In this document: positions 2,043-48,687 of the stretch, piece after piece
Numbering within the stretch: position 1 is the stretch's first letter
Layout: the number at the start of each line of letters is the position of its first letter
Assembly: GCA_017883385.1 (NCBI GenBank)
Contig: JADGNQ010000015.1
Coordinates: 1 to 64,000, forward strand
Direction of reading: 5' to 3'
Source: Candidatus Sulfotelmatobacter sp.
Lineage (GTDB): Bacteria; Acidobacteriota; Terriglobia; Terriglobales; Acidobacteriaceae
DNA: 64,000 nucleotides
Translations under genes and position numbers: made by a program
Notes under the pieces: generated by a model
What the model saw: the letters and a program-made list of their open reading frames with translations, nothing else
What the model was told of the DNA's origin: nothing
Database searches by the model: none

Positions 2043-3770
2043 TTATTTCCATTTGCCTGCACCTTCGACAATCGTAATGTAACGGTCGATGGGGAGTTCG
2101 CCAATTCGCTCGATCTTGCCGCTGGGTTGCGGCCACTGAATCTCCAACCAGTCGAGCTTCGTCCGTTTCCCAAGGCCCAACACGATGCGCGGGTCATGAG
2201 AAGACAGAAAACTGCCTCCGCCGACCTTCATTCGCTGCTGCTTCAGATCTCCGGACTGATAAGTTATCCGTGCGCCAATGGCATCGGCATTCGACTTTGT
2301 CCCGACAAGATTGATTCCGAGCCAATGGTTCTGACTTCCCACCGCGTTGCGTAAGAGAACCGGGGCACCGTCGTTGACCGATACAAGGACATCGATTGCG
2401 CCGTCGTTGTCGAAGTCCCCAATTGCCATGCCCCGAGCCGATAACGGCTTGCTGAATGCGGGACCGCTCTGCGCACTGACATTCTGCAAGCTCTTGCCAG
2501 TGTTGTGAAAGAGCATGAGCGGCTCCTGATACTTCACCTGACTATGCAAGCTTTCGATCAGGTCGTCAGGATTACCGTTGGCGAGAAACAGGTCCAGATT
2601 ACCGTCGTTGTCGTAATCGAAAAACTTAAGCCCCCACCCGCTCATGAGCCGTGTCGCCATTCCGATTCCGGTAGGGCCGGCCTGATCGTCAAAGGTCTCA
2701 TCGTGATTGTTCTGGTAAATGGAGAAACGTTCCAGATCGATGTTGGCGACGAACAGGTCCATCCATCCGTCCTGGTTGAAGTCGGCGGAATCGAGTCCCA
2801 TGCCGGAGCGAGCCCGACCGTCGCCGCTGTAGGCCACTCCTGCATAGGTGGCATTTTCTTCGAATCGCCCCTTTCCGCGATTCATGAAAACGAAGTTAGG
2901 TACGGTGTCATTGCTGACAAACAGGTCCAGTTGACCGTCATTATTAAGGTCGGTAGCGACCACGCCCCATGCCTTTCCCAGAGAATTGGCGATGCCGGAG
3001 GTTTTGCTGACGTCGGTGAACGTTCCGTCGCCGTTATTGTGAAACAGCCAACTGGGCATGGGCTTGTAGAGGCGAGGAATGCAGTACCCGTGTTTGCCCT
3101 CTTCGCCAGGGCCGCAAGACTTATTTATGGTTTTGGAGAACTCTACAAATTGGCAGACAAACAGATCGAGCTTGCCGTCATTGTCGTAGTCGAACCAGAC
3201 AGCACTGGATGACCATCCCGGCGCGGCCACGCCGGCTTTCTCCGTCACATCGGTGAACGTTCCATCGCCGTTATTGTGATAGAGGATGCTTTTTCCATAC
3301 TGCGTGACATAGATGTCAGCGAAGCCATCGCCGTCGTAGTCGCCAACGGCTACTCCCTGGCCGTATCCGCCTCCGGGTACTCGAGCCTTTTCAGTGACGT
3401 CGGTAAAAGTGCCGTCACGGTTATTGCGATACAGCGCATTCCGCAAAGGCGGAGTGGGATCATAGAAATCGCACTTCCCGCTGTTGACGAGGTAAATGTC
3501 CATCCAGCCGTCATTATCGTAATCAAGGAAGGCGCAGCCCGGCCCGGTGGTTTCAGGAAGAAATCTCTCCGGGGATCTTCCCGAGGTGTGCGTCCAGCGG
3601 ATGCGGCTCTTGTCCGCGGGGATCTCTTCAAATGGATAGATAGTATCCGGCGTCGCGCGCAGAAAAGGCGGCAATCCGCTGATCGCGGCAGCTCCTACCA
3701 CATTCCTTAGGAACTGGCGGCGGGAAGAACGGTACTGGATACGGTTTGGCTGTGCAGAGGGCCTGTTCAC
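2043..3770 (-). CDS. Tat-exported CRTAC1-family protein (VCBS/FG-GAP repeats plus ASPIC/UnbV domain)
   Basis: A 575-residue protein with a twin-arginine signal ([17 protein letters not shown], residues 16-32), so it is probably exported folded. The body is a run of VCBS/FG-GAP repeats with calcium-binding motifs of the DxDxDGxxD kind ([54 protein letters not shown]), expected to form a seven-bladed propeller. The last about 90 residues (from [20 protein letters not shown]) are the ASPIC/UnbV domain. It is the last gene of an apparent operon behind the TPR protein (32-bp gap) and the TonB receptor. The start is a GTG. Family members are usually annotated only as CRTAC1-like, and the ligand is unknown. 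Confidence 0.92.
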
Positions 3771-9475: not shown

Positions 9476-11227
9476 TCACCGCTGTTTGCGCACGAATTGC
9501 TGCAGTTGAAGCTGGTCTTTTCCTTCCTCGATCAAGTAGAACGTATCGGCCTCGACATTACGGAAAACCTGCCGTTGCCCGCTGGGCCATTCGATTTCGA
9601 CGGTTTCTGCACGCTTTGTCTTGCCGAGGCCGAAATTTGCACGCAAGTCGCTTTGTGAAAGATAGCTTCCTCCCCCGGCAATCTCGCGGATTTGCGATAG
9701 CGGGCCGGCAGCTATGCGAATGCGGGCTCCCATCGCGTCGCGATTGCTCTTTGTTCCTACCAGTCTGAAATTGAGGAAGTGGTTACCGTTGCCGCCGCCG
9801 TTGTGCAACAGAAGTGGCGAATCTCCGTTGTTCGCCACAACCGCATCCACAAATCCATCGTTGTCGAAATCCGCAAAGGCGACTCCCCGACCTACGTAGG
9901 GGGTTGCAAAGCCGGTACCGGACAACTTGCTGACCTCAGTAAACCTGCCGTTTCCTTCATTGTGGAACAAAGAATTGAGCTGCCTATAGTGAGTTCCCGG
10001 CGTGGCCTGCTCCACCTCGGGATAGACATGGCCGTTGGCGATGAAAATATCCAGCCAACCATCGTCGTCATAATCGAAGAAGCCGCCGCCGAAACTGAGC
10101 ACCTCGCGCGTCAGCCGGGTGATGCCGGCTTGATCGCTGACCTCGTCAAGAAATCCTTTGCCCTCGTTGTGCCAAAGATGATCGGAGGACCGTTGAAAGT
10201 CTGAGATGTATAGGTCGAGCCGCCCGTCGTTGTCATAGTCTCCAAGGGAGATGCACATCGCGGCCATGGACTTTCCCTGGGCGGCTAGAGCCATTCCACT
10301 GACCAGTCCAATTTCCTTGAACGTGCCGTTCCGTTCGTTGTGGTAGAGATAGGCATTCAGGCCATCGTTGGCGACGAACAAATCAGGCCATCCGTCGTCG
10401 TCGTAGTCGGCGGACGCGACCGAGAGATTCTTGCCTTCGGGCTGGTAGATCTTGGCTGCGGCGGTCACGTTGGTGAAGGTACCATCGTGATTATTGTGAT
10501 AGAGCGCGTCCAGGCTGCCGCGATACGCGCTCGGCGCGCAGCTGCTGAGCATGTCCCCCAACTGGCAGTAACGTTTGTCGCCTAAAGTGACGTAGCTCCC
10601 GACGTAGAGATCGAGCCAGCCATCGCGGTCATAGTCAAAAAATGTCGCTCCAGAATGAAATGCGCCCGATTCAGTACCAGCTACGCCAGACTTGTCTGTG
10701 ATGTCAGTAAAGGTTCCATTTCCATTGTTGCGATACAGAACATTGCGACCGTATTGCGTCACAAAAAGATCGGGGAAGCCGTCATTGTTGAAATCTCCCC
10801 ACACGCAACCGAGCCCGTATCCGGTTCCGGGTACACCGGCTTTTTCAGTGACATCGGTGAAAGTGCCGTCCCCGTTGTTGCGATAGAGCGCATTGCTGAC
10901 CGAAATGCCCCGATTGTAGAGATCAAGCCCATTCACGAAATAAATATCCTGCCAGCCGTCACCGTCGAAATCGGCGACGCAGACTCCCGGACCAAACTCC
11001 TCGCGATTAATCGAGATGCCCTTATTCCCCTTGAAGTGCACAAACTTGATGCCAGCCGCGGCAGTTACGTTTGTGAACTCGATCGGACCTGGTCGCGCGT
11101 CTTGTGCGCAGAGCGCTGGGATGAAGCTTGAAATTTTGACTACTAAGACAAGGAGGAGCGTCCGGACGAAAGGTTTGGTGACTGGCGAGGGCCGATGGCG
11201 CCGACCTCCTGGTGAATTCGGAATCAT
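9476..11227 (-). CDS. Secreted CRTAC1-family protein (VCBS/FG-GAP plus ASPIC/UnbV)
   Basis: A 583-residue protein with a Sec signal peptide (VRTLLLVLVVKISSFIPALCAQ) instead of the Tat signal of its neighbour at 2043-3770. VCBS repeats carry DFDGDGWQD, DFNNDGFPD, DYDRDGWLD, DYDDDGWPD, DYDNDGRLD, DYDDDGWLD and DFDNDGFVD motifs. The C-terminal ASPIC/UnbV domain begins near NHFLNFRLVGTKSNRDAMGA. It is convergent with the GntR gene (56-bp gap) and apparently transcribed alone. It is a clear paralogue of the other CRTAC1 proteins in the window. Role unknown; extracellular calcium-stabilised propeller by family knowledge. Confidence 0.92.
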   Translation of the reverse strand: MIPNSPGGRRHRPSPVTKPFVRTLLLVLVVKISSFIPALCAQDARPGPIEFTNVTAAAGIKFVHFKGNKGISINREEFGPGVCVADFDGDGWQDIYFVNGLDLYNRGISVSNALYRNNGDGTFTDVTEKAGVPGTGYGLGCVWGDFNNDGFPDLFVTQYGRNVLYRNNGNGTFTDITDKSGVAGTESGAFHSGATFFDYDRDGWLDLYVGSYVTLGDKRYCQLGDMLSSCAPSAYRGSLDALYHNNHDGTFTNVTAAAKIYQPEGKNLSVASADYDDDGWPDLFVANDGLNAYLYHNERNGTFKEIGLVSGMALAAQGKSMAAMCISLGDYDNDGRLDLYISDFQRSSDHLWHNEGKGFLDEVSDQAGITRLTREVLSFGGGFFDYDDDGWLDIFIANGHVYPEVEQATPGTHYRQLNSLFHNEGNGRFTEVSKLSGTGFATPYVGRGVAFADFDNDGFVDAVVANNGDSPLLLHNGGGNGNHFLNFRLVGTKSNRDAMGARIRIAAGPLSQIREIAGGGSYLSQSDLRANFGLGKTKRAETVEIEWPSGQRQVFRNVEADTFYLIEEGKDQLQLQQFVRKQR

Positions 11228-34174: not shown

Positions 34175-35908
34175 ATGGGTTTACTCCTGGCGACGATGGC
34201 GCCCGCCCAAACTGCACCTGCTAAGCCTCAAGCCGCGCAGTCCCAAGTTCCGCAGACGCAGCTCTCCCCACTCCACGTCCCGCAGTTTGAAGACATCGCC
34301 GAGAAAGCGGGTTTAACCGTTTCCCACATCGCTTCACCAGAGAAGAAGTACGTTGTCGAATCAATGAGCGGCGGAGTCGGCCTGATTGACTGCGATAACG
34401 ACGGCAAGCTCGACATCATCACGGTCAACGGGTCGACCGTCGAGCGCTACAAGCAGGGTGGAGATTTGTTGGTTACGCTCTACCACCAGGATGCGGACCT
34501 GAAGTTTACCGACATCACCAAAGCAGCCGGGCTTACGCGCAAGGGGTGGGGCATGGGCGTCGCCGTCGCGGACTACGACAATGACGGACTGCAGGACATA
34601 TACGTCACCGGATTCGGCGGCAATGCGCTCTATCACAATCTCGGCAATTGCAAGTTCGAAGACGTGACCGAGAAGGCCGGAGTCGCCGGCGGGGGCTTCA
34701 GCACAGGCGCGGCCTGGGCCGACTACGATCACGATGGCCGTGTCGATCTCTTCGTCTCGCGCTACGTGCACGTCGAGATCGACAAACTGCCCGAGTTCGG
34801 CAACGATCCGCGCTTCTGCCGCTTCAAAGGAATCTTGGTGCAGTGCGGTCCGTGGGGCATGCCGGGCGAATCTGACTTGCTGTTTCACAACAAGGGCGAC
34901 GGCACGTTCGAGGAAGTTTCCAAGAAGGCCGGGGTCGACGACCCGCATCACTATTACGGTTTGGGCGCGACCTGGGGCGACTACGACAACGACGGATGGC
35001 CGGATCTCTACGTAGCCAATGATGCCGGGCCGAATTTTCTCTACCACAACAAGCACGACGGCACGTTTGAGGACGTCGGGCTGCTCTCTGGCGTGTCCCT
35101 GAGCGGCGATGGCATGCAGCAAGGTTCGATGGGCGTGGCTTGGGGAGACTATTTGCACGAAGGACGGTTGTCGGTGCTGGTCACCAATTTTACGGAGCAA
35201 GGTTCCACGCTCTATCACAACCTGGGGGGCGACAGCTTCGCCGATGTGAGCGTGCGCTCCAGGATAAACAGGCCCACGTATCCGCTCGTGAGTTGGGGCA
35301 CTTCCTTCTTTGATATGGACAACGACGGATGGCAGGATGTCTTCATCGACAGCGGCCACGTCTACCCGCAGGTCGACACCATCCCCGGAGGCGCAGCATA
35401 CCGGGAGCCTCTGGTGCTGTTTCGCAACCATCGCGACGGGACTTTTGAAGATGTTTCCTCGGCTCTGGCGGCGCTGCCCCTGAAATCGAGGCGGGGCGCG
35501 GCTTTCGGCGACATCAACAATGACGGCAACGTTGATATTGTGGTTCTGAACGTGGGCGAGCCGCCTTCACTCCTGCTGAACCACAATGACAGCCCGAATC
35601 ATCGCGTGCTATTCAAGCTGATTGGATCGAAGAGCAACAAGGCGGCGATCGGCGCGCGGGTCACCGTCAAAGCCGGTCCGCTCGTGCAGTTCGACGAAGT
35701 GCGCGGCGGGGCAGGCTACATTTCACAGAACGATCTGCGGCTGCATTTCGGTTTGGGGTCGAACGACAAGATGAGTGAGGTGAGCATCCGCTGGCCGAAC
35801 GGCGAAACCGAAACCTTGCGAGATGTAGCGGCGGATTTCATTTACACGATAACCGAAGGCGCAGGAATCCAGCAGAAAGTGGCGCTGCCCGCTTTGCCGC
35901 AACCTTGA
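34175..35908 (+). CDS. Secreted CRTAC1-family protein (VCBS/FG-GAP plus ASPIC/UnbV)
   Basis: A 577-residue protein with VCBS repeats (DCDNDGKLD, DYDNDGLQD, DYDHDGRVD, DYDNDGWPD, DMDNDGWQD, DINNDGNVD) and an ASPIC/UnbV domain at the end (from NHRVLFKLIGSKSNKAAIGA to IRWPNGETETLRD). The assigned ATG leaves a short signal peptide (MGLLLATMAPAQ). The same frame is open for nine more codons (ILPSTRTRLGLW), which would give a normal basic start, but no ATG, GTG or TTG is available there. So the true start may be a rare codon (ATT or CTG) or the short signal may suffice. It is monocistronic, followed by a palindromic repeat. Confidence 0.9.
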   Translation: MGLLLATMAPAQTAPAKPQAAQSQVPQTQLSPLHVPQFEDIAEKAGLTVSHIASPEKKYVVESMSGGVGLIDCDNDGKLDIITVNGSTVERYKQGGDLLVTLYHQDADLKFTDITKAAGLTRKGWGMGVAVADYDNDGLQDIYVTGFGGNALYHNLGNCKFEDVTEKAGVAGGGFSTGAAWADYDHDGRVDLFVSRYVHVEIDKLPEFGNDPRFCRFKGILVQCGPWGMPGESDLLFHNKGDGTFEEVSKKAGVDDPHHYYGLGATWGDYDNDGWPDLYVANDAGPNFLYHNKHDGTFEDVGLLSGVSLSGDGMQQGSMGVAWGDYLHEGRLSVLVTNFTEQGSTLYHNLGGDSFADVSVRSRINRPTYPLVSWGTSFFDMDNDGWQDVFIDSGHVYPQVDTIPGGAAYREPLVLFRNHRDGTFEDVSSALAALPLKSRRGAAFGDINNDGNVDIVVLNVGEPPSLLLNHNDSPNHRVLFKLIGSKSNKAAIGARVTVKAGPLVQFDEVRGGAGYISQNDLRLHFGLGSNDKMSEVSIRWPNGETETLRDVAADFIYTITEGAGIQQKVALPALPQP

Positions 35909-35942: not shown

Positions 35943-35971
35943 TGTCATCCTTCGCTTCGCTCAGGATGACA
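35943..35971. repeat. Compact palindromic repeat (CATCCT-family), likely bidirectional terminator
   Basis: TGTCATCCT and AGGATGACA (9-bp perfect arms) enclose TCGCTTCGCTC. It sits in the 81-bp gap between the convergent CRTAC1 and sugar-porter genes. The core is the same as in the repeats at 37874-37973 and 47438-47523, here reduced to a single hairpin. Confidence 0.75.
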
Positions 35972-37873: not shown

Positions 37874-37973
37874 TTTGTCATCCCGAGCAAAGCGAGGGAC
37901 CTGGGTCTTGGCTCGCGCCCTGACAGATGCTTGCACCGCAGGCAAACACCCAGCTGTTGCTCGGGATGACAAA
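37874..37973. repeat. 100-bp palindromic interspersed repeat (CATCCT-family)
   Basis: Perfect 17-bp arms, TTTGTCATCCCGAGCAA (37874-37890) and its reverse complement (37957-37973), flank 66 bp. It lies between the divergent rhodanese and pseudouridine-synthase genes. The left arm and the following AGCGAGGGACCT match the element inserted in the gene at 45055-48687. Confidence 0.85.
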
Positions 37974-40345: not shown

Positions 40346-43225
40346 ATGCGGGAAATGCCAACATCTGGGGGATTTGTCGGTCGGGCCCTGTCGCGGCTGG
40401 TGGCATTGCTGGCTATTTCTGCCGCGTACCTCTACACCTTTCCGCAGCCGAACATCTTCTATGCGGGCGTGGTATTGCTGCATGCCGCCGGAGGGGTATT
40501 AGCGGCGATCCTGCTGGTCCCTGCGTTCATTCGGCTCATTCGCACCGGTAGCCTCTCCTCTCGCGCCGGCTGGATTCTGATCGCCGCCGGGGCGGTTCTG
40601 GGGCTGATTCTCATCAAGACCGGCACTCCGCGTACGGAGTGGAACAAGCTCTATCTTCACATTGTGATTTCGCTGGCGGGTGTTGGCCTGCTGATCGCTG
40701 GCTGGCTGGGCAATCGCCGCTACAGGGAGTCAAGCGCAGGTGCGGCCGTCATGCGTGCCGTCCTCTGCTTGGCCGTGCTTGCCGGCGTGGGCTATGGTGC
40801 CCGCTACGTTCGCGAGAGCTGGCAGACGCGCAATCGCATCGAGAATCCAACCATGCCGCCTGACAACATGAATGGCGAAGGCGATGGTCCCGAGGGCTCG
40901 TTCTTCCCCAGTTCGGCGCAGGTTTACGGCAAGCAGAAAATTCCCAGCAAGTTCTTCATGGAGTCCGACTCCTGCAAGCGCTGCCACGAAGATGTCTACA
41001 ACCAGTGGTTCAGTTCGGCGCACCATTTTTCGTCGTTCAACAATCAGTGGTATCGCAAGTCGATCGAGTACATGCAAGACACGGTCGGCACCACGCCTTC
41101 GAAATGGTGTGGCGGCTGCCACGATCCCGCGGTGCTGTACGCCGGGTTGATGGATACGCCGATCAAGCAGATCGTGCACCGGCCTGAGGCGCAGGCTGGA
41201 CTGGGCTGCATGATGTGCCACTCCATCGCCAACGTGAAGAGCACGATGGGGCAGGGCGATTTTTATCTGGAGTATCCCAAGCTGCACGAACTGGCGGCTA
41301 CGCAGAATCCGGTGGCGCGCGCGCTGCATGATTTTCTGATCAAGCTGAATCCCGAGCCGCACCGGCGCGTGTTCCTGAAGCCTTTCATGCGCGATCAAAC
41401 GGCGGAGTTCTGCTCTTCCTGTCACAAGGTACACCTCGATGTGCCGGTGAACAATTACCGCTGGTTCCGCGGCTTCAACGAATACGACAACTGGCAGGCC
41501 AGCGGCGTTTCCGGGCAGGGAGCGCGCTCGTTCTACTATCCGCCCAAGCCGCAGCAGTGCGCCGATTGCCACATGCCCGCGGCCGCGTCGAAGGACTCCG
41601 GCAACATCAACGGATTCGTGCACTCGCATCGTTTCCCCGGCGCCAACACCGCCCTGCCCACCGCGAACGAGGACGCGCCCCAGCTCAAGCTGACGGAAGA
41701 CTTCTTGAAAAGTGGCGCACTCACGGTCGACATTTTCGCGCTGTCTCCGGCGCAGGCTCCACTCAAGCCCGGGGCTGGCACGCAGTCGGAACTCTCCACG
41801 ACCTTCGCCGTGGGAGAGGAAGCCGAGAGCAAGATGACGGCCGAGACTGGTGGCGAAACCGCCCCGGTTACGGCTCCGCTAAACCGCGTGCAGCCCGCGC
41901 TGCGTCGCGGCGACATCGTGCGCGTGGACGTGGTGGTGCGCACGAAGAAGGTCGGCCACTTTTTCCCCGGCGGCACGGTCGACGCCTACGACACCTGGCT
42001 CGAACTCAAGGGCACTGACGACAAGGGCCAGACCATCTTCTGGAGCGGCAAGGTTGAGGACAACGGGCATGGGCCGGTCGAGAAAGGGGCCCACTTCTAC
42101 CGTTCGCTGCAGATCGACGCGCACGGCAATCCCATCAACAAGCGGAATGCGTGGGCTACGCGGGCCGTGGTGTATGTGCGTCTGATCCCGCCGGGAGCGG
42201 CCGACACGGTGCACTATCGCATGCTGGTGCCGGAAAACTCCGGCAACAAGATCACACTGCATGCGCGGCTTTGTTACCGGAAGTTCGCGTGGTATGGAAC
42301 GCAGGAGGCTTTCGTTGGGCAGCCCGACCCCGCCGCGCCCAATGCGGTTTCGCCGGACTACGACGACCGTCCGACCGTTTTCACGGCGTCGCTCAGCGGA
42401 GTGTCTGCGAAAGAAGAAAAGATTCCAGACCTGCCCATTGTCACCGTCGCCGAGGACGAAGTCACGCTTCCGGTGGTGGCGCGCAATGCGCCCGGGGTCG
42501 AACCGAAGACAATCGTCCGCAAGGAAGAATGGCAGCGCTGGAACGACTATGGAATTGGGTTGTTTCTGCAGGGGGACTTGAAGGGCGCTGCCGCGGCTTT
42601 CCAAAAGGTAACCGAGGCGGACCCGAACAATCCTGACGGCTGGGTCAACATTGGCCGCTGCGCGGTGCAGGAAGGCGACATGGCGCGTGCCCGTACGGTG
42701 CTGGAGAAAGCGCTGTTGCTGAATCCGAATCTTGCGCGGACGAATTTCTTTTACGCCAAGGTCCTGCGCTCGGACGGCAACTACGACGGTGCGGCCGACC
42801 GACTGCGAAAAGTGCTGACGCAGTACCCGCGTGACCGGGTTGCACTCAACGATCTGGGGCGCGTGCTCTTCCTGCAGCGCAAATACGATGACGCGGTGAA
42901 GGTTCTTCAGTCGGTCCTGGCCATTGATCCCGAGGACTTGCAGGCGCACTACAACCTGATGCTGTGTTACAACGGCTTGGGCAACGAGAAGTTAGCCAAG
43001 GAGCATCAGGCGCGGTATATGCGCTTCAAGGCGGATGAGTCGTCGCAGGCGGTCACCGGCCCTTACCGCCAGCTTCATCCCGAAGACAACAACGAGCGGC
43101 AACAGGTGCATGAGCACGTCTCGGTAGCGCTGCCGGTAATCAAAACAGCCCATTTGGGGACAGCCGCCTCGGCTGTCCGGCCGGGCAAAGCCCGTCCAGT
43201 TGTCTCTGCCGGAGCCTCCAAGTAA
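40346..43225 (+). CDS. Membrane-anchored pentaheme cytochrome c with C-terminal TPR repeats
   Basis: A 959-residue protein. The N-terminal about 165 residues contain four or five hydrophobic helices, so it is membrane-anchored. A cytochrome domain follows with five CxxCH sites, CKRCH, CGGCH, CMMCH, CSSCH and CADCH, at about residues 210, 255, 288, 356 and 405. A beta-rich region (about 500-700) precedes TPR repeats (about 725-900: YGIGLFLQGDLKGAAAAFQK, VNIGRCAVQEGDMARARTVL, NDLGRVLFLQRKYDDAVKVL). The last about 25 residues come from a palindromic repeat. An upstream TTG (40340) is possible. First gene of an operon with two CRTAC1 proteins; electron transfer in the envelope is inferred. Confidence 0.9.
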   Translation: MREMPTSGGFVGRALSRLVALLAISAAYLYTFPQPNIFYAGVVLLHAAGGVLAAILLVPAFIRLIRTGSLSSRAGWILIAAGAVLGLILIKTGTPRTEWNKLYLHIVISLAGVGLLIAGWLGNRRYRESSAGAAVMRAVLCLAVLAGVGYGARYVRESWQTRNRIENPTMPPDNMNGEGDGPEGSFFPSSAQVYGKQKIPSKFFMESDSCKRCHEDVYNQWFSSAHHFSSFNNQWYRKSIEYMQDTVGTTPSKWCGGCHDPAVLYAGLMDTPIKQIVHRPEAQAGLGCMMCHSIANVKSTMGQGDFYLEYPKLHELAATQNPVARALHDFLIKLNPEPHRRVFLKPFMRDQTAEFCSSCHKVHLDVPVNNYRWFRGFNEYDNWQASGVSGQGARSFYYPPKPQQCADCHMPAAASKDSGNINGFVHSHRFPGANTALPTANEDAPQLKLTEDFLKSGALTVDIFALSPAQAPLKPGAGTQSELSTTFAVGEEAESKMTAETGGETAPVTAPLNRVQPALRRGDIVRVDVVVRTKKVGHFFPGGTVDAYDTWLELKGTDDKGQTIFWSGKVEDNGHGPVEKGAHFYRSLQIDAHGNPINKRNAWATRAVVYVRLIPPGAADTVHYRMLVPENSGNKITLHARLCYRKFAWYGTQEAFVGQPDPAAPNAVSPDYDDRPTVFTASLSGVSAKEEKIPDLPIVTVAEDEVTLPVVARNAPGVEPKTIVRKEEWQRWNDYGIGLFLQGDLKGAAAAFQKVTEADPNNPDGWVNIGRCAVQEGDMARARTVLEKALLLNPNLARTNFFYAKVLRSDGNYDGAADRLRKVLTQYPRDRVALNDLGRVLFLQRKYDDAVKVLQSVLAIDPEDLQAHYNLMLCYNGLGNEKLAKEHQARYMRFKADESSQAVTGPYRQLHPEDNNERQQVHEHVSVALPVIKTAHLGTAASAVRPGKARPVVSAGASK
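43156..43198 (+). repeat. Double-hairpin repeat forming the C-terminus of the cytochrome-TPR protein
   Basis: Two consecutive hairpins, GGACAGCC/GGCTGTCC (43158-43178) and CGGGC-AAA-GCCCG (43182-43194), lie inside the reading frame just before the stop at 43223. They encode the tail LGTAASAVRPGKARP. This paired hairpin is of a kind I recall as an intergenic repeat in Acidobacteria; not verified. Confidence 0.6.
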
Positions 43226-44988
43226 TGGTTCTTCAAAGCGGAAAATCCACCACAGAGTCACAGAGACACAGAGGAGAACACAAATCTTCTTTCTTCGTTC
43301 TTCTTCTCTGTGGCTCTGTGTCTCTGTGGTTAATGATTTTGCCGAGCCACGCCCAGCAGATTCACTTCCGCGACATCACCACCCAGGCCGGAATCCACTT
43401 CAACCACAACAACGGCGCTTTCGGGAAGAAGTGGCTGCCCGAAACCATGGGCCCCGGGTGCGCCTTCATCGACTACGACAACGACGGATATCCCGACATC
43501 CTACTGATCAACGGCGATGACTTTCCCGGACACCCTCACACCGGCGCTACCACTTTGAAGCTTTACCATAACAATCACGACGGCACCTTCACCGACGTGA
43601 CGCGCAAAGCAGGCCTGGCGGTGCCTATGTTCGGATTCGGTGTCGCCGTGGGGGACTATGACAACGACGGCTACGACGATCTCTTCGTGACTGCGCTGGG
43701 TCAGAGTCATCTCTTCCACAACAACGGCAACGGCACGTTCACCGATGTCACCAAGGCCGCTGGAATGTGGGGCCCGAGCGAGTTCTCGACCAGCGCCGCC
43801 TGGGTCGACTACGACCGCGACGGGAAGCTCGATCTCGTGATCGCGAACTATGTGCAGTGGTCCGAACAGGGCGATCTCTATTGCACGCTCGACGGTGCGC
43901 ACAAGTCCTATTGCACGCCGGAGTCATACAAAGGCACGTCCGTGCGACTGTGGCATAACCTGGGCAACGGTAAGTTTGAAGACGCAACGCAGAAAGCCGG
44001 ACTTGGCGATCCAACCTCGAAGAGTCTGGGTATCGCGATTCTCGACTCCAATGGCGATGGCTGGCCCGACATCCTGATCGCCAACGATACGCAGCCCAAC
44101 AAACTCTACCTGAACAAGAAGGATGGAACGTTCGAAGAACGAGGCGTCGCGGCCGGCATCGGTTTCAGCGAGGACGGCATCGCGCGTGCCGGCATGGGCG
44201 CCGACGCCGCCGACTACGACCGCAGCGGGCACGCCAGTGTTCTCATCAGCAACTTCGCCAATCAGATGGTGTCGCTCTATCACAATGAAGGAAACGGTTT
44301 GTTTGTGGATGAAGCCCCGCAGTCCGAAGTCGGACGGGCGACCCTGATCACGCTGGGATTTGGCTGCTTCTTCTTCGACTACGACAACGATGGCTGGCAG
44401 GATATCTTCGTCGCCGACGGACACATCGAAGATCAGATTGAGCGCGTACAGAAACGCGTGAGCTACGCCGAGCCTCCGCATCTGTTCCGCAATCTCGGTG
44501 GCGGCAAGTTCAGCGAAGTTACGGCGCAAATGGGCAGCGCCTTTGGCACGCCGAAAGTGGCGCGGGCGGCGGCTTACGGCGACATCGATAACGACGGCTT
44601 CCTGGATGTTCTGCTCACAACCAACGCTGGTCCGGCCTACTTGTTCCACAACGAGGGTGGTTCGAACCACAGCCTGCGCCTCAAGCTAGTGGGCACGAAA
44701 TCGAATCGCGACGGCATTGGCGCGGTCGTCCGCGTGGCGGCCGGAAGCGACAAGCAGTGGAAGATGCTGCGCTCGGGGTCGAGTTATCTGGCGCAGAGCG
44801 AACTGGTGCTGACTTTTGGACTGGGCTCGCAAACCAAAGCCGACACGGTTGAGATTCAGTGGCCCAGCGGGCAGGTGGACAAGCTTGCGAACGTTAACGC
44901 CGGAGAGACCGTTACGGTGCAGGAAGGCAAGGGAATCGTGAACACTCGCGCCTACGCCGCGCCGCACGCATACGCAGCGTCGAAATAG
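43225..44988 (+). CDS. Secreted CRTAC1-family protein with repeat-derived signal peptide
   Basis: A 587-residue protein whose ATG overlaps the preceding TAA by one base (TAATG), so translation is coupled. The signal peptide (hydrophobic core FFVLLLCGSVSLWLMI, cleavage near SHAQ) is encoded by a palindromic DNA repeat (43250-43329). The mature part has VCBS repeats (DYDNDGYPD, DYDNDGYDD, DYDRDGKLD, DSNGDGWPD, DYDNDGWQD, DIDNDGFLD) and an ASPIC/UnbV domain (from NHSLRLKLVGTKSNRDGIGA). Second gene of the pentaheme operon. A surface partner of the cytochrome-TPR protein is plausible. Confidence 0.92.
   Translation: MVLQSGKSTTESQRHRGEHKSSFFVLLLCGSVSLWLMILPSHAQQIHFRDITTQAGIHFNHNNGAFGKKWLPETMGPGCAFIDYDNDGYPDILLINGDDFPGHPHTGATTLKLYHNNHDGTFTDVTRKAGLAVPMFGFGVAVGDYDNDGYDDLFVTALGQSHLFHNNGNGTFTDVTKAAGMWGPSEFSTSAAWVDYDRDGKLDLVIANYVQWSEQGDLYCTLDGAHKSYCTPESYKGTSVRLWHNLGNGKFEDATQKAGLGDPTSKSLGIAILDSNGDGWPDILIANDTQPNKLYLNKKDGTFEERGVAAGIGFSEDGIARAGMGADAADYDRSGHASVLISNFANQMVSLYHNEGNGLFVDEAPQSEVGRATLITLGFGCFFFDYDNDGWQDIFVADGHIEDQIERVQKRVSYAEPPHLFRNLGGGKFSEVTAQMGSAFGTPKVARAAAYGDIDNDGFLDVLLTTNAGPAYLFHNEGGSNHSLRLKLVGTKSNRDGIGAVVRVAAGSDKQWKMLRSGSSYLAQSELVLTFGLGSQTKADTVEIQWPSGQVDKLANVNAGETVTVQEGKGIVNTRAYAAPHAYAASK
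43250..43329 (+). repeat. Palindromic CACAGAG repeat inside a signal-peptide coding region
   Basis: Arms 43250-43278 and 43301-43329 (29 bp each) are inverted repeats matching at 26 of 29 positions, each built from CCACAGAG-n-CACAGAG-n-CACAGAG. They lie wholly within codons 9-35 of the CRTAC1 gene. Single-arm relatives occur at 45013-45044 and, more weakly, at 63171-63187. Confidence 0.85.
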
Positions 44989-45012
44989 CCCGGGCGATGA
45001 CGTCCTGGGTTT

Positions 45013-45044
45013 CCTCTGTGTTCTCCGTGTCCTCTGTGGTTAAA
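45013..45044. repeat. Half copy of the CACAGAG repeat
   Basis: CCTCTGTGTTCTCCGTGTCC and the following TCTGTGGTTAAA correspond to the right arm of the repeat at 43250-43329. It fills most of the 66-bp gap between the two CRTAC1 genes, just before the ATG at 45055. Confidence 0.6.
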
Positions 45045-45054
45045 TCTTAAGCGA

Positions 45055-48000
45055 ATGACTCTCCGAATCTCAGTCGCTCTCACCGGCGTACTCCTCGCCG
45101 CTTTTGGCCTGTTCTCATCCGGTCCGCAATCCCAACCCAAAGTCAATCCCGTGGAAGCCGCGCGCTTGAACAATCTCGGAGTCGCTTATATGAACCAGCA
45201 GCTTTTCGAGAAGGGGTTGAAAGAGTTCCAGCAAGCTTCGGAGGCCGATCCCCGGTTGGCGATTGCCCGACTCAACGTTGGTGTCGCGTACCTGAACCTG
45301 CAGAAGGTGGACGAAGCCAAGGCCGCACTGGAAGCCGCGCTCAAGCAGGATCCGAAGAATCCGAACGCCTGGTACGGACTCGGTTTGCTGGCTAAGAATA
45401 CCGGCGACGCACCGGCGGCGATCGATGCGTTCAAGCGTGTGACCGAGATCGACGCAGACGACGCCGACACTTGGTATTTTCTGGGCACGGCCTATGTGCA
45501 GGCCAAGCAGTTTCCTCAAGCTATCGAGGCCTTCGAGCGCGCGTTGAAACTCAACCCGCTGCACGCCTCGGCCGAGTTCGGATTGTCGCGGGCGTACCAG
45601 CAATCCGCCGACGTGGACCACGCCCGCGAGCATCTGAAGAAATTCCAGTACATCACACAGAACAAGATTGGCGCGCCCATGAGCCTGGCCTACGGCGAGC
45701 AGGGCCAGTACTCGCGCGCGGTGGAGTCACCGAGCGCGGTGCTGAAAGCGCCGGCGCCGATCAAGGTGTGGTTTGTGGACGTGACAAAGGAAGCGGGATT
45801 GATCACGAGCGGCGCTCCGGGCGGGGCACGGGACATACCCTCAGCAGTCGGGTCGGGCGCATGCTTCCTGGACTATGACGGCGATGGCAAGATCGACATT
45901 CTCTTACCTGACAACGGCGCGCAAGCAGGGATGTCGCTCTATCGCAACCTGGGTAACGGGAAGTTTGAAGATGTGACCAAGAAGGCTGGTCTCGATCCGA
46001 CCGTGCACGCGATAGGGTGCACCGCGGGAGATTACGACAACGATGGCGCCACGGATCTTGCCGTGAGTTCTGTTTCTGGCGTGGTGTTGCTGCACAACGA
46101 GAAGAACGGCACCTTTAAAGATGTCACGAAGGACGCCGGGATGATTCCGAAGGCCGTCGCGAGTACGCCCGCGATTGGAGTGCCGCTCGGCATTACCTTC
46201 ATCGACTACGATCACGACGGCGACGTTGACGTTTACGTCACGAAAGCCCTGCCAGAAGGGGCGCTACAGTCGTCGGGGAAGATCTGGTCTGAACAGATGC
46301 CGCCGGTCGGATCCAACGTGATGTGGCGCAACAACGGGAATGGGACTTTCACGGAAGTCACATCCGAGGTCGGCCTGCTTGGGAACACTGCCAGCGTCGC
46401 GGCAGTTGGCACCGACTACAACAACGACCGCGCAGTGGACGTTGTTCTAACTGGCGGGCCAAAAGGAGCCACGGTATTTGAGAACCCCCGTGAAGGGATG
46501 TTTGCCATCCACGAAGTCTCGTCTGAGCGGATGCACGCACCAGCAGTCGGCGTTGCCGTTCTTGACTTCGATCATGATGGCTGGATGGACTTGGCTTTCA
46601 CGCATTGGGGGAACCCGGGCCTCACGCTTTGGCGTAACAATCACGCCAAGACCTTCGAGCAGGTGAAACTTCCCGAGACCAACTGGGTCCGCGCCTACGG
46701 CGTCGCCGCCTTCGACTACGACAACGACGGCTGGGTCGATCTCGTCGCGGTCGGCGAGACGAAAGATGGCAAAGGCGAAATCCGCCTCTTCCGCAATCTC
46801 GGGCCGGACGGCTTCAAGGACGTCACCACCGACGTTGGCCTCGACAAGATTCAGCTCAAAGATCCGCGCGCCATCATCACCGGCGACTACGACGGCGACG
46901 GCGCCACCGATCTGCTCATCACGCAGAATCACGGGCCTGCCGTGCTGTTGCGCAATGAAGGTGGCAACCAGAATCACTGGCTGCGGCTCTCGCTCAAGGG
47001 ACTGAACGACAACAAGTCGGCCATCGGCACCAAGGCTGAAGTCTTTTCCGGCGGCAACCGGCAGAAATTTGAAATCTATGGCTCGAATGGCTACCTCGGC
47101 CAGAGCTCGACCGACATCGTTGTTGGCCTGGGCGACTCCAAAGACGCCGACATCGTGCGCATGATGTGGCCGACGGGTGTGCTGCAAGACGAAATCCAGG
47201 TCGCCGGAGACAAGCAGCAAGACTTCCTCGAGATCGACCGCCGCGGTAGTTCGTGCCCCACGCTCTTCGTCTGGAATGGCGAGCGCTATGAGTTTGTCGC
47301 CGACATGCTAGGCGCGGGTGTGGTCGGCCACTGGATTGGGCCCGGCCAGCGCGACATTCCGCGGCCGGTTGAGTGGATCAAGGTTGATCGCAACATGATT
47401 CTGGAAAAAGATGGTCTCCACATTGCGAAATCATCATGTCATCCTGAGCGAAGCGAAGGACCTATGCAATTCGCAGCCAGTTGCACAGATCCTTCGCCGC
47501 AAAAAGCTGCGGCTCAGGATGATAAAGGCCTTGGGAACACGAGCAAGACTCTCAGCTTCCGCTTCATGGAACCGCTGGAGGAAGCCGTCTACCTCGATCA
47601 GGTACGGCTGCTGGCGGTGGATCATCCAGCGGATGTCGACGTCTATCCCAATGAGTATTTCGCGTCGAACCCGCCGTATCCTCCATTCAAGGTGGTGGTG
47701 AGCCGCGACGCGCGTCCACCGGCCGGAGCGTGGGACGAGCACGGTCACAACGTGCTGCCCGATCTGCTGGCGCACCGCTACTTCGGCGACTTTGCGCTGA
47801 CGCAGTTTCAGGGATTCGCCCAGCCGCACACCCTCACGCTCGATCTGGGTGAGCCTTACCATGGCGGACCGCTGTGGCTGTTGCTCCACGGCGAGGTCGA
47901 GTATTTTTCGGCGAACAGCATGTATGCCGCGTCGCAAGCGGGCGTGCAGGCTTTTGCTCCTTACATTGAGGCGCTTGGCTCTGACGGCAAATGGAGACGG

Positions 48001-48687
48001 GTGATCGACGACATGGGTTTTCCCGCCGGCGGCCCGCGCACCATGACGGCCGATCTCAGCGGCAAGCTGCCGCCGGGCACGCAGAAGATTCGCCTCACGA
48101 CCAATCTACAGGTTTATTGGGACAGCATCCTGATTGACCGCACGCCGCAGAAGTCGCGCGATCAAGCGCAGAATCCTCGTCTGACGCCGGTTCCGCTGGT
48201 CAGCGCCGATTTACGGTTCCACGGATATCCGCTGAAGATCGAAGGCAAGCCCGCGGGGAACGTGCAGTACGTCTACGAGAAGACGAGCGCCACCGGGCCT
48301 TACACCCGTCCCTTCGGCACCTACACGCGTTACGGCGACGTGCTCGCGCTGCTGACGGCAACCGACGACAAACTGGCCGTATTCGGATCGGGTGACGAAG
48401 TGCGGCTCGACTTCGATCCTTCGAATCTGCCGTCGCTGCCCAAGGGCTGGGTGCGGGATTATTTCTTCGCGGCCAACGGCTACGAAAAGGACATGGACTT
48501 CTACGCCGCCGAGGGAAATTTCGTCGCGCCTCTGCCGTTCTTGAGCATGGGTGAATATCCGTACACGCCGAAAAAGTCATTCCCGCTCGATGACGCGCAC
48601 GTGAATTATCTTCTTGAGTACAACACTCGGCACATGTCAGGGAATGAGCAGCGCGGGTATTGGTTCGACTACGGCGAGAATCGATAG
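45055..48687 (+). CDS. Large secreted TPR-CRTAC1 protein with an in-frame repeat insertion
   Basis: A 1210-residue exported protein. A signal peptide (about 1-25) is followed by TPR repeats (about 35-205: LNNLGVAYMNQQLFEKGLKE, YGLGLLAKNTGDAPAAIDAF, YFLGTAYVQAKQFPQAIEAF). VCBS repeats follow (about 245-640: DYDGDGKID, DYDNDGATD, DYDHDGDVD, DFDHDGWMD, DYDNDGWVD, DYDGDGATD), then an ASPIC/UnbV domain (about 640-720) and a C-terminal region of about 480 residues starting CPTLFVWNGERYEFVADMLG, of unknown function. About residues 795-823 (KSSCHPERSEGP ... AAAQDDKG) are encoded by a palindromic interspersed repeat that keeps the frame open. Third gene of the pentaheme cytochrome operon, 66 bp after the second. 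Confidence 0.9.
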   Translation: MTLRISVALTGVLLAAFGLFSSGPQSQPKVNPVEAARLNNLGVAYMNQQLFEKGLKEFQQASEADPRLAIARLNVGVAYLNLQKVDEAKAALEAALKQDPKNPNAWYGLGLLAKNTGDAPAAIDAFKRVTEIDADDADTWYFLGTAYVQAKQFPQAIEAFERALKLNPLHASAEFGLSRAYQQSADVDHAREHLKKFQYITQNKIGAPMSLAYGEQGQYSRAVESPSAVLKAPAPIKVWFVDVTKEAGLITSGAPGGARDIPSAVGSGACFLDYDGDGKIDILLPDNGAQAGMSLYRNLGNGKFEDVTKKAGLDPTVHAIGCTAGDYDNDGATDLAVSSVSGVVLLHNEKNGTFKDVTKDAGMIPKAVASTPAIGVPLGITFIDYDHDGDVDVYVTKALPEGALQSSGKIWSEQMPPVGSNVMWRNNGNGTFTEVTSEVGLLGNTASVAAVGTDYNNDRAVDVVLTGGPKGATVFENPREGMFAIHEVSSERMHAPAVGVAVLDFDHDGWMDLAFTHWGNPGLTLWRNNHAKTFEQVKLPETNWVRAYGVAAFDYDNDGWVDLVAVGETKDGKGEIRLFRNLGPDGFKDVTTDVGLDKIQLKDPRAIITGDYDGDGATDLLITQNHGPAVLLRNEGGNQNHWLRLSLKGLNDNKSAIGTKAEVFSGGNRQKFEIYGSNGYLGQSSTDIVVGLGDSKDADIVRMMWPTGVLQDEIQVAGDKQQDFLEIDRRGSSCPTLFVWNGERYEFVADMLGAGVVGHWIGPGQRDIPRPVEWIKVDRNMILEKDGLHIAKSSCHPERSEGPMQFAASCTDPSPQKAAAQDDKGLGNTSKTLSFRFMEPLEEAVYLDQVRLLAVDHPADVDVYPNEYFASNPPYPPFKVVVSRDARPPAGAWDEHGHNVLPDLLAHRYFGDFALTQFQGFAQPHTLTLDLGEPYHGGPLWLLLHGEVEYFSANSMYAASQAGVQAFAPYIEALGSDGKWRRVIDDMGFPAGGPRTMTADLSGKLPPGTQKIRLTTNLQVYWDSILIDRTPQKSRDQAQNPRLTPVPLVSADLRFHGYPLKIEGKPAGNVQYVYEKTSATGPYTRPFGTYTRYGDVLALLTATDDKLAVFGSGDEVRLDFDPSNLPSLPKGWVRDYFFAANGYEKDMDFYAAEGNFVAPLPFLSMGEYPYTPKKSFPLDDAHVNYLLEYNTRHMSGNEQRGYWFDYGENR
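47438..47523 (+). repeat. CATCCT-family palindromic repeat inserted in frame in a coding sequence
   Basis: TCATCCTGAG (47439-47448) and CTCAGGATGA (47513-47522) are perfect inverted repeats flanking about 64 bp. The left part GAGCGAAGCGAAGGACCT matches the intergenic copy at 37874-37973. Translated in the gene's frame it gives CHPERSEGP. Confidence 0.85.

Follow-up and report, generated by a model that had tools for sequence, protein, structure and literature searches.

Unrelated palindromic repeat families lie in frame at the same loops of an acidobacterial TPR/FG-GAP/ASPIC protein gene

How can a mobile-looking palindromic repeat lie in the middle of a protein gene that remains unbroken, and is the position that it occupies special? 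This question is raised by a gene of the soil acidobacterium Candidatus Sulfotelmatobacter sp. that is located in the window, i.e. the whole stretch of 64,000 nt that was analysed, and that represents a natural test case for the tolerance of selfish DNA in proteins. The gene (positions 45055–48687, forward strand) has an open frame for 1210 aa and encodes TPR repeats, FG-GAP repeats, an UnbV_ASPIC domain, and a C-terminal beta-rich region. The start of the protein looks like a signal peptide by eye, and the protein is probably exported. A two-armed, REP-dimer-like palindrome of 86 nt, designated family A, occupies positions 47438–47523 (forward strand) and is read in frame as CHPERSEG...AAAQDD (codons 47437–47523). 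The original prediction had placed a palindrome here, and its coordinates proved to be exact to the base. The encoded peptide CHPERSEGPMQFAASCTDPSPQKAAAQDD (residues 795–823) lies between NMILEKDGLHI and TLSFRFMEPLEEAVYLDQVR, as had also been predicted. With limits set by eye, the first arm, GTCATCCTGAGCGAAGCGAAGGACCT, spans positions 47438–47463 (forward strand), and the second, inverted arm, with a longer internal hairpin GCCGC...GCGGC, spans positions 47487–47523 (reverse strand). The 86 nt are predicted to form one long hairpin structure with a minimum free energy of −45.3 kcal/mol. An Rfam search with positions 47000–48000 gave no match, and the string CHPERSEG was not found in the literature searched.

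The repeat is dispersed, as predicted. Two further copies in the window lie outside of recognised genes, i.e. a related two-armed copy of the GTCATCCCGAGC subtype at 37874–37973 (forward strand) and a single-arm copy at 35943–35971 (reverse strand). A 23-nt arm sequence occurs three times in the window, exactly at 35948–35970 and 47438–47460 and with three mismatches at 37877–37899, versus no match in 100 shuffles of the window. A search of the 6.8-Mb genome that allowed up to three mismatches gave 72 matches for this arm (32 forward and 40 reverse) and none for the reversed pattern used as a control. The CGTC-type REP superfamily is characterised by an unpaired CGTC tag at one end and a stem of 8–9 bp with a loop of 4–5 nt. 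Family A differs from it in the tag, which is TGTC in 65 of the 72 arms (CGTC in three, other sequences in four). Its stem has 5 bp (ATCCT/AGGAT), followed by mismatches and a short inner stem. As in that superfamily, the stem starts with AT after the tag, and the tags lie outside in dimers (GTC-ATCCT...AGGAT). These stem features were determined by inspection of two-armed copies, which had been selected for having two arms and hence yield no rate.

For comparison, the insertion site was analysed in homologues, mostly from metagenome assemblies of Candidatus Sulfotelmatobacter and other Terriglobia. Of 84 different rows, ten without a readable site and one short row were dropped, leaving 73; three loci had no match. 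Site 1 (47392–47559, forward strand) comprises the repeat and hypervariable linkers and has 56 codons in the window. It is empty in 39 of the 73 homologues, with REKDGKLSF as the typical sequence, and most of the empty sites have 12 codons (xxIREKDGKLSF), so that about 44 residues are absent; homologues without the extra residues, for which the original prediction had proposed a check, do exist. Empty sites were found in 11 of 37 homologues within the genus and in 28 of 36 outside it, filled sites in 26 (including L097) and eight, respectively. Because the linkers beside the insert are hypervariable, empty and filled sites are not alignable base for base in a check for target-site duplications.

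The 34 longer sites contain repeats of family A (seven), family B (19), family C (six), or something else (two). All 32 fillings from the three repeat families are in frame, and no stop codon is present in the printed site 1 sequences. Family B is a REP-like hairpin of the form TCCCA-stem-loop-stem-TGGGGCACCC, often present as two inverted copies, and family C is a GACCTC-type repeat of the GACCTCAGACCTCGGACC type. The remaining two sites carry a GTAGGGGCGGG palindrome outside of the three families (L154) and six extra codons in which no repeat was seen (L097). In L120, B and A are adjacent. The family labels were assigned by eye; a script confirmed the B hairpin in 14 inserts, namely that of L120 and those of 13 of the 19 B rows. 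Alignments between representatives of the three families do not exceed chance, as 490–500 of 500 shuffles score as high. The unrelated repeats at the same position in other species had been missed by the original prediction, as had a second such site in the gene, and its reading of the element is, overall, partly supported.

Site 2 is located about 235 residues beyond site 1, after NLQVYWDSILIDRT. In the window it has 15 codons (48145–48189, forward strand), and no repeat was recognised there; in homologues outside the genus its length is 10–18 residues. It is expanded to 28–71 residues in 24 of the 68 homologues read, all 24 of the genus. By eye, most of the expanded copies hold palindromes other than those of site 1, i.e. 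family G, which begins with GTAGCGCCG, family F (CGCCCCGCTGG...CGGGATGAC), and a further type, GCGTCATCCTGAGCGCAGCC. In L114 and L117, a small hairpin (AAPPPAKAGG and AAPPPAEAGG, respectively) was seen by eye inside the loop of family F, i.e. one repeat is nested in another, in frame.

We favour, with a probability of about 0.7, the following explanation. A non-autonomous element of the REP-dimer type (REPIN-like) would have entered, in frame, a short turn of the TPR/FG-GAP/ASPIC protein. Three places would be hotspots, i.e. this turn, the loop at site 2, and one loop of UvrC (see below); unrelated palindromic families would have landed there in the various species, sometimes next to each other. 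Copies would arise genome-wide, and selection would purge those within genes unless they lie in a loop that can bulge with an open frame; the tolerated peptide would have roughly 13 to 70 residues. Tolerance of the peptide may thus be the reason for the existence of the hotspots, and an IS200/RAYT-type Y1 transposase may have mobilised the elements.

Copies in frame in other genes are few. A codon model, for which the window served as training data, called 33 of the 35 repeat copies of the host gene in frame; in 592 kb of the relatives’ loci, 15 copies outside of this gene were scored, and none was in frame (L163, flagged as elsewhere in this census, is the host gene itself). None of the 50 other scored family A copies in the window’s genome is truly in frame, and three at contig ends were left unscored. 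The genome map that had been proposed thus bore out the dispersal of the repeat and revealed no second in-frame case among these 50 copies. An earlier scoring, in which one of 59 elements of this genome was in frame (the copy at 47438), was replaced, as it had caught only eight of the 35 known in-frame copies. A two-armed A copy with a stop-free frame at 1501–1599 of L025 (window’s genome, contig C54) had been flagged as in frame and was rejected; its place is directly upstream of, and not within, a gene for a Y-family DNA polymerase.

Of 15 repeat-matching stretches from other genomes that were followed up, 13 contain an A arm, and in two of them the arm is in frame within coding sequence, in each case that of UvrC. 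The respective UvrC loop, between LPEF and FHPGEFFSALLKQLY, was read in 39 genus genomes and has 16 to 90 residues. Ten of these genomes contain both A arms and three contain one arm; a second palindrome, CATGTGGGGAC..., is present in 16, GAGACGTTGC as a third motif in six, and none of the three in eight, the categories being overlapping. With shuffled letters, the values per 39 loops are 0 for both A arms, 0.97 for CATGTGGGGAC, and 0.25 for GAGACGTTGC. The window’s genome has the third motif (L341 of the uvrC set L311–L350). Loops that hold several families are therefore present in at least two genes, the host gene being one of them. In addition, the gene for a protein with a C-terminal specificity domain of Type ISP contains an in-frame A copy (L351:1230, genome G015, contig C27). 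The claim that the repeats nearly avoid other frames was narrowed by the UvrC and Type ISP cases.

Families A, B, C, and G have dispersed copies. A search of 45 genus genomes with up to two mismatches found B in every genome, A arms in 44, G in 27, and C in 17, and the reversed controls for the four families gave no hit in these genomes, save one for C. Genomes with C at site 1 have more C copies (Mann-Whitney p 0.0017), and those with G at site 2 have more G copies (p 0.0004); both values are based on a small set of 37 genomes and are uncorrected for kinship. For A at site 1, the corresponding value is p 0.062 (37 genomes, uncorrected for kinship). In five genomes outside the genus with B at site 1, B-like matches are few, i.e. 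3 to 6 per genome, some of which are not hairpins, and in three of the five one match is site 1 itself, judged by letters and place. A rich donor pool of B outside the genus was thus not seen in the five genomes searched. As a side observation, family C hits occur at 7-nt steps, i.e. as tandem arrays, in the genus genomes G001 and G031 (146 and 94 hits, respectively), and 28 of the 45 genomes have none.

Matches to Y1 transposases are present in 43 of the 45 genus genomes. In the window’s genome, a Y1_Tnp gene (L032, contig C157, 1465–2043) is flanked by B copies at 1336 and 2062, i.e. it has REPs around a Y1 transposase gene, as is characteristic of REP/RAYT systems. A third B repeat inside this gene, at 1748, is in frame and reads GVPHFSRPLREVG. 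B was found in five of the 35 Y1 loci examined, which are the best matches and not all Y1 genes. A transposase for family A was sought and none was found: the best-matching 35 Y1 loci contain no A arm with up to three mismatches, and a 12-nt motif is present in four. Family A may be mobilised by a Y1 transposase of the IS200/RAYT type.

Alternatively, a transposing enzyme might recognise the DNA of these turns, so that insertions would occur at the same nucleotide and in a fixed orientation regardless of the tolerance of the protein. IS200/IS605 relatives insert site-specifically, and in ten of the 14 script-confirmed inserts, four of these ten being outside the genus, frame and orientation agree and the first nucleotide of the B repeat is exactly 24 nt downstream of the anchor. 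However, the insertions of A and C begin at other codons within the turn, and B-like sequence in reverse is present in L126 and L150 (both by eye). Site 2 and the UvrC loop also differ from site 1 in the surrounding sequence, and shared descent or an exchange of filled alleles would fix position and frame as well. For the common start nucleotide of B, shared descent, allele exchange, and targeting are indistinguishable; as an explanation of the whole pattern, sequence-specific targeting appears unlikely.

A second alternative is that the hairpin in the mRNA has been exapted and is what is kept, rather than the peptide, e.g. for slowing the ribosome between domains or for protection of the message, with the families as interchangeable sources of it. 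The silent sites are informative in this respect. Among the seven species with A at site 1, silent sites in the flanks are almost saturated (pS 0.66 and 0.63), whereas the A arms have a pS of 0.143 and a pN of 0.066. The middle part of the insert has values of 0.38 and 0.33, respectively. None of 785 windows of 20 codons from the rest of the gene has a pS as low as the arms (minimum 0.356), and neither has any of 5000 random sets. The first B repeat also has a low value (pS 0.364 versus 0.686; 0 of 777 windows as low). The effect is less exclusive for family F (pS 0.397; 4 of 860 windows as low) and for the eight CHPERSEG codons alone (pS 0.147; 5 of 818), which speaks against an exapted hairpin. 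According to these data, the A arms are held at the nucleic-acid level, or are refreshed by other copies of the repeat, or were acquired more than once. Tolerance of the peptide alone falls short of explaining the silent-site conservation of the arms.

The stems of B covary, with 22 cells showing two-sided changes, a number that none of 500 shuffles attained (slid controls, 0–4). Folding z values of −3 or lower were obtained for 17 of 34 fillings of site 1 and seven of 24 fillings of site 2, in comparison to one of 203 control windows. Nevertheless, the other 17 fillings of site 1 and 17 of site 2 miss this value and argue that the hairpin is not indispensable; L054, L147, and L169 have no clear excess of folding. 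In addition, many species live without any insert, and both the covariation and the conserved arms may stem from the repeat population or from gene conversion. Taken together, a selected mRNA hairpin as the explanation is rather improbable. A broader proposal, which we regard as speculative and unlikely, is that the loops are docks for interchangeable hairpins, recruited in frame repeatedly and in more than one gene, in which the DNA or RNA hairpin and not the peptide would be maintained by selection or conversion.

Could all fillings go back to one old insertion that has diverged beyond recognition? For family A, a single event is indeed suggested. All seven A inserts at site 1 have 86 nt and are 80–92% identical, in contrast to 55 different two-armed A copies from elsewhere (a part of all copies), which range from 50 to 124 nt and never have 86 nt. 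In comparison with this partial set, the best match of an A insert is the site 1 copy of another species in six of seven cases; for the exception, L114, a copy from elsewhere is slightly better (0.88 versus 0.87). The distances between the inserts track those of the flanks (Mantel r 0.55, p 0.013), with r 0.67 and p 0.0014 for the arms and r 0.34 and p 0.064 for the middle part. A single ancestral insertion of A would be the simplest reading of these sequences. The A insert looks old, since seven species share the 86-nt copy and the arms have a low pS, and the proposal of a recent insertion in the original prediction was rejected because the copy is common to the seven species. The position of B is also constant across genera. 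However, alignments among A, B, and C are not better than those of shuffled letters, each matches its own dispersed family, and B and A lie side by side in L120. One common origin of all fillings is therefore very improbable.

The history of the host gene is complex. Trees of the N-terminal part (66 of the 73 rows) and of the local region (69 rows) are in conflict, though many branches are weakly supported. In the whole-protein tree, for example, the neighbours of L096 and L098 are A carriers, and in the local tree they are empty homologues. The host gene thus looks mosaic, and the conflict is a sign of recombination between species. The trees require at least 23 (N-terminal part) and 21 (local) changes of the site 1 state, and at least 15 and 11 changes, respectively, between empty and filled. 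An assembly or gene-calling artefact has a negligible probability: the genomes are mostly fragmented metagenome assemblies, but the same insert with the same length and an open frame is present in seven genomes, with flanks that are near saturation at silent sites.

The hotspot explanation can be compared with known systems. In-frame REPs and Rickettsia palindromic elements (RPEs) are already known. According to the accessible part of the report on RPE-4/6/7, these palindromes are in frame in protein genes and were modelled in solvent-exposed regions, and the RPE group at roughly one locus can differ between orthologues; a single common origin was preferred by the authors, who left hotspots possible (PMC3767692). 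The likeness to RPEs that had been proposed for the element is well founded, and the ATGAC motif described there is also the end of family A. Compared with RPEs, as far as their description in that text goes, the sequences of the families at one turn have no relationship to each other, empty sites are abundant, and the phylum is different. The ambiguity between a hotspot and one diverged insertion is shifted towards hotspots here by the unrelated families, the empty sites, the second site, and the UvrC loop. GTAG and CGTC REPs, both single and as dimers, were described within genes, which often function in DNA repair, e.g. uvrA and uvrB, and recB of two Xanthomonas species has different REPs at about the same site (Di Nocera 2013; PMC3733652, accessible part). 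In contrast to that case of one gene and two species, several families, dozens of species, and two sites plus the UvrC loop are involved here. The two inverted REP-like arms and the B repeats around the Y1 transposase gene of L032 resemble the REPIN/RAYT systems in the descriptions available, and family A, which is presumed to be mobile, differs from them in having no linked transposase in the best 35 Y1 loci.

ERIC, Correia, and YPAL MITEs are non-autonomous palindromes that can be fused in frame to genes, and the available portions of the respective articles do not describe a single site that unrelated families occupied repeatedly (PMC2229807, PMC10969869). That unrelated families enter the same loops again and again, on such a scale, is regarded as new; a literature search of titles and the starts of abstracts, with most subscription journals outside its reach, yielded nothing that describes it. 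The dozens of species within one genus enable direct tests of how palindromes enter, persist in, and leave proteins, and of the role of the hairpin in the mRNA.

A structure model of residues 620–1210, built with 60 sequences (mean pLDDT 66.5), is compatible with the predicted surface loop. The insert is probably such a loop, modelled with a pLDDT of about 30–40, a value that the thin alignment may also have lowered, between strands 153–158 and 212–219 of the fragment. Site 2 is likewise placed between two strands (401–409 and 423–427 of the fragment). The fold search gave weak matches (a viral capsid as the best one, with E 7.7e-4 and probability 0.28, and CBM32 with E 1e-3 and probability 1.00), and hence no function is claimed for the host protein. 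Based on DNA repeat similarity, groups of FG-GAP-like repeats occur on both strands of the window at 2380–3535, 9830–10980, 34370–35545, and 43225–48687; the last group includes a gene for an FG-GAP/UnbV_ASPIC protein (43225–44988) directly upstream of the host gene.
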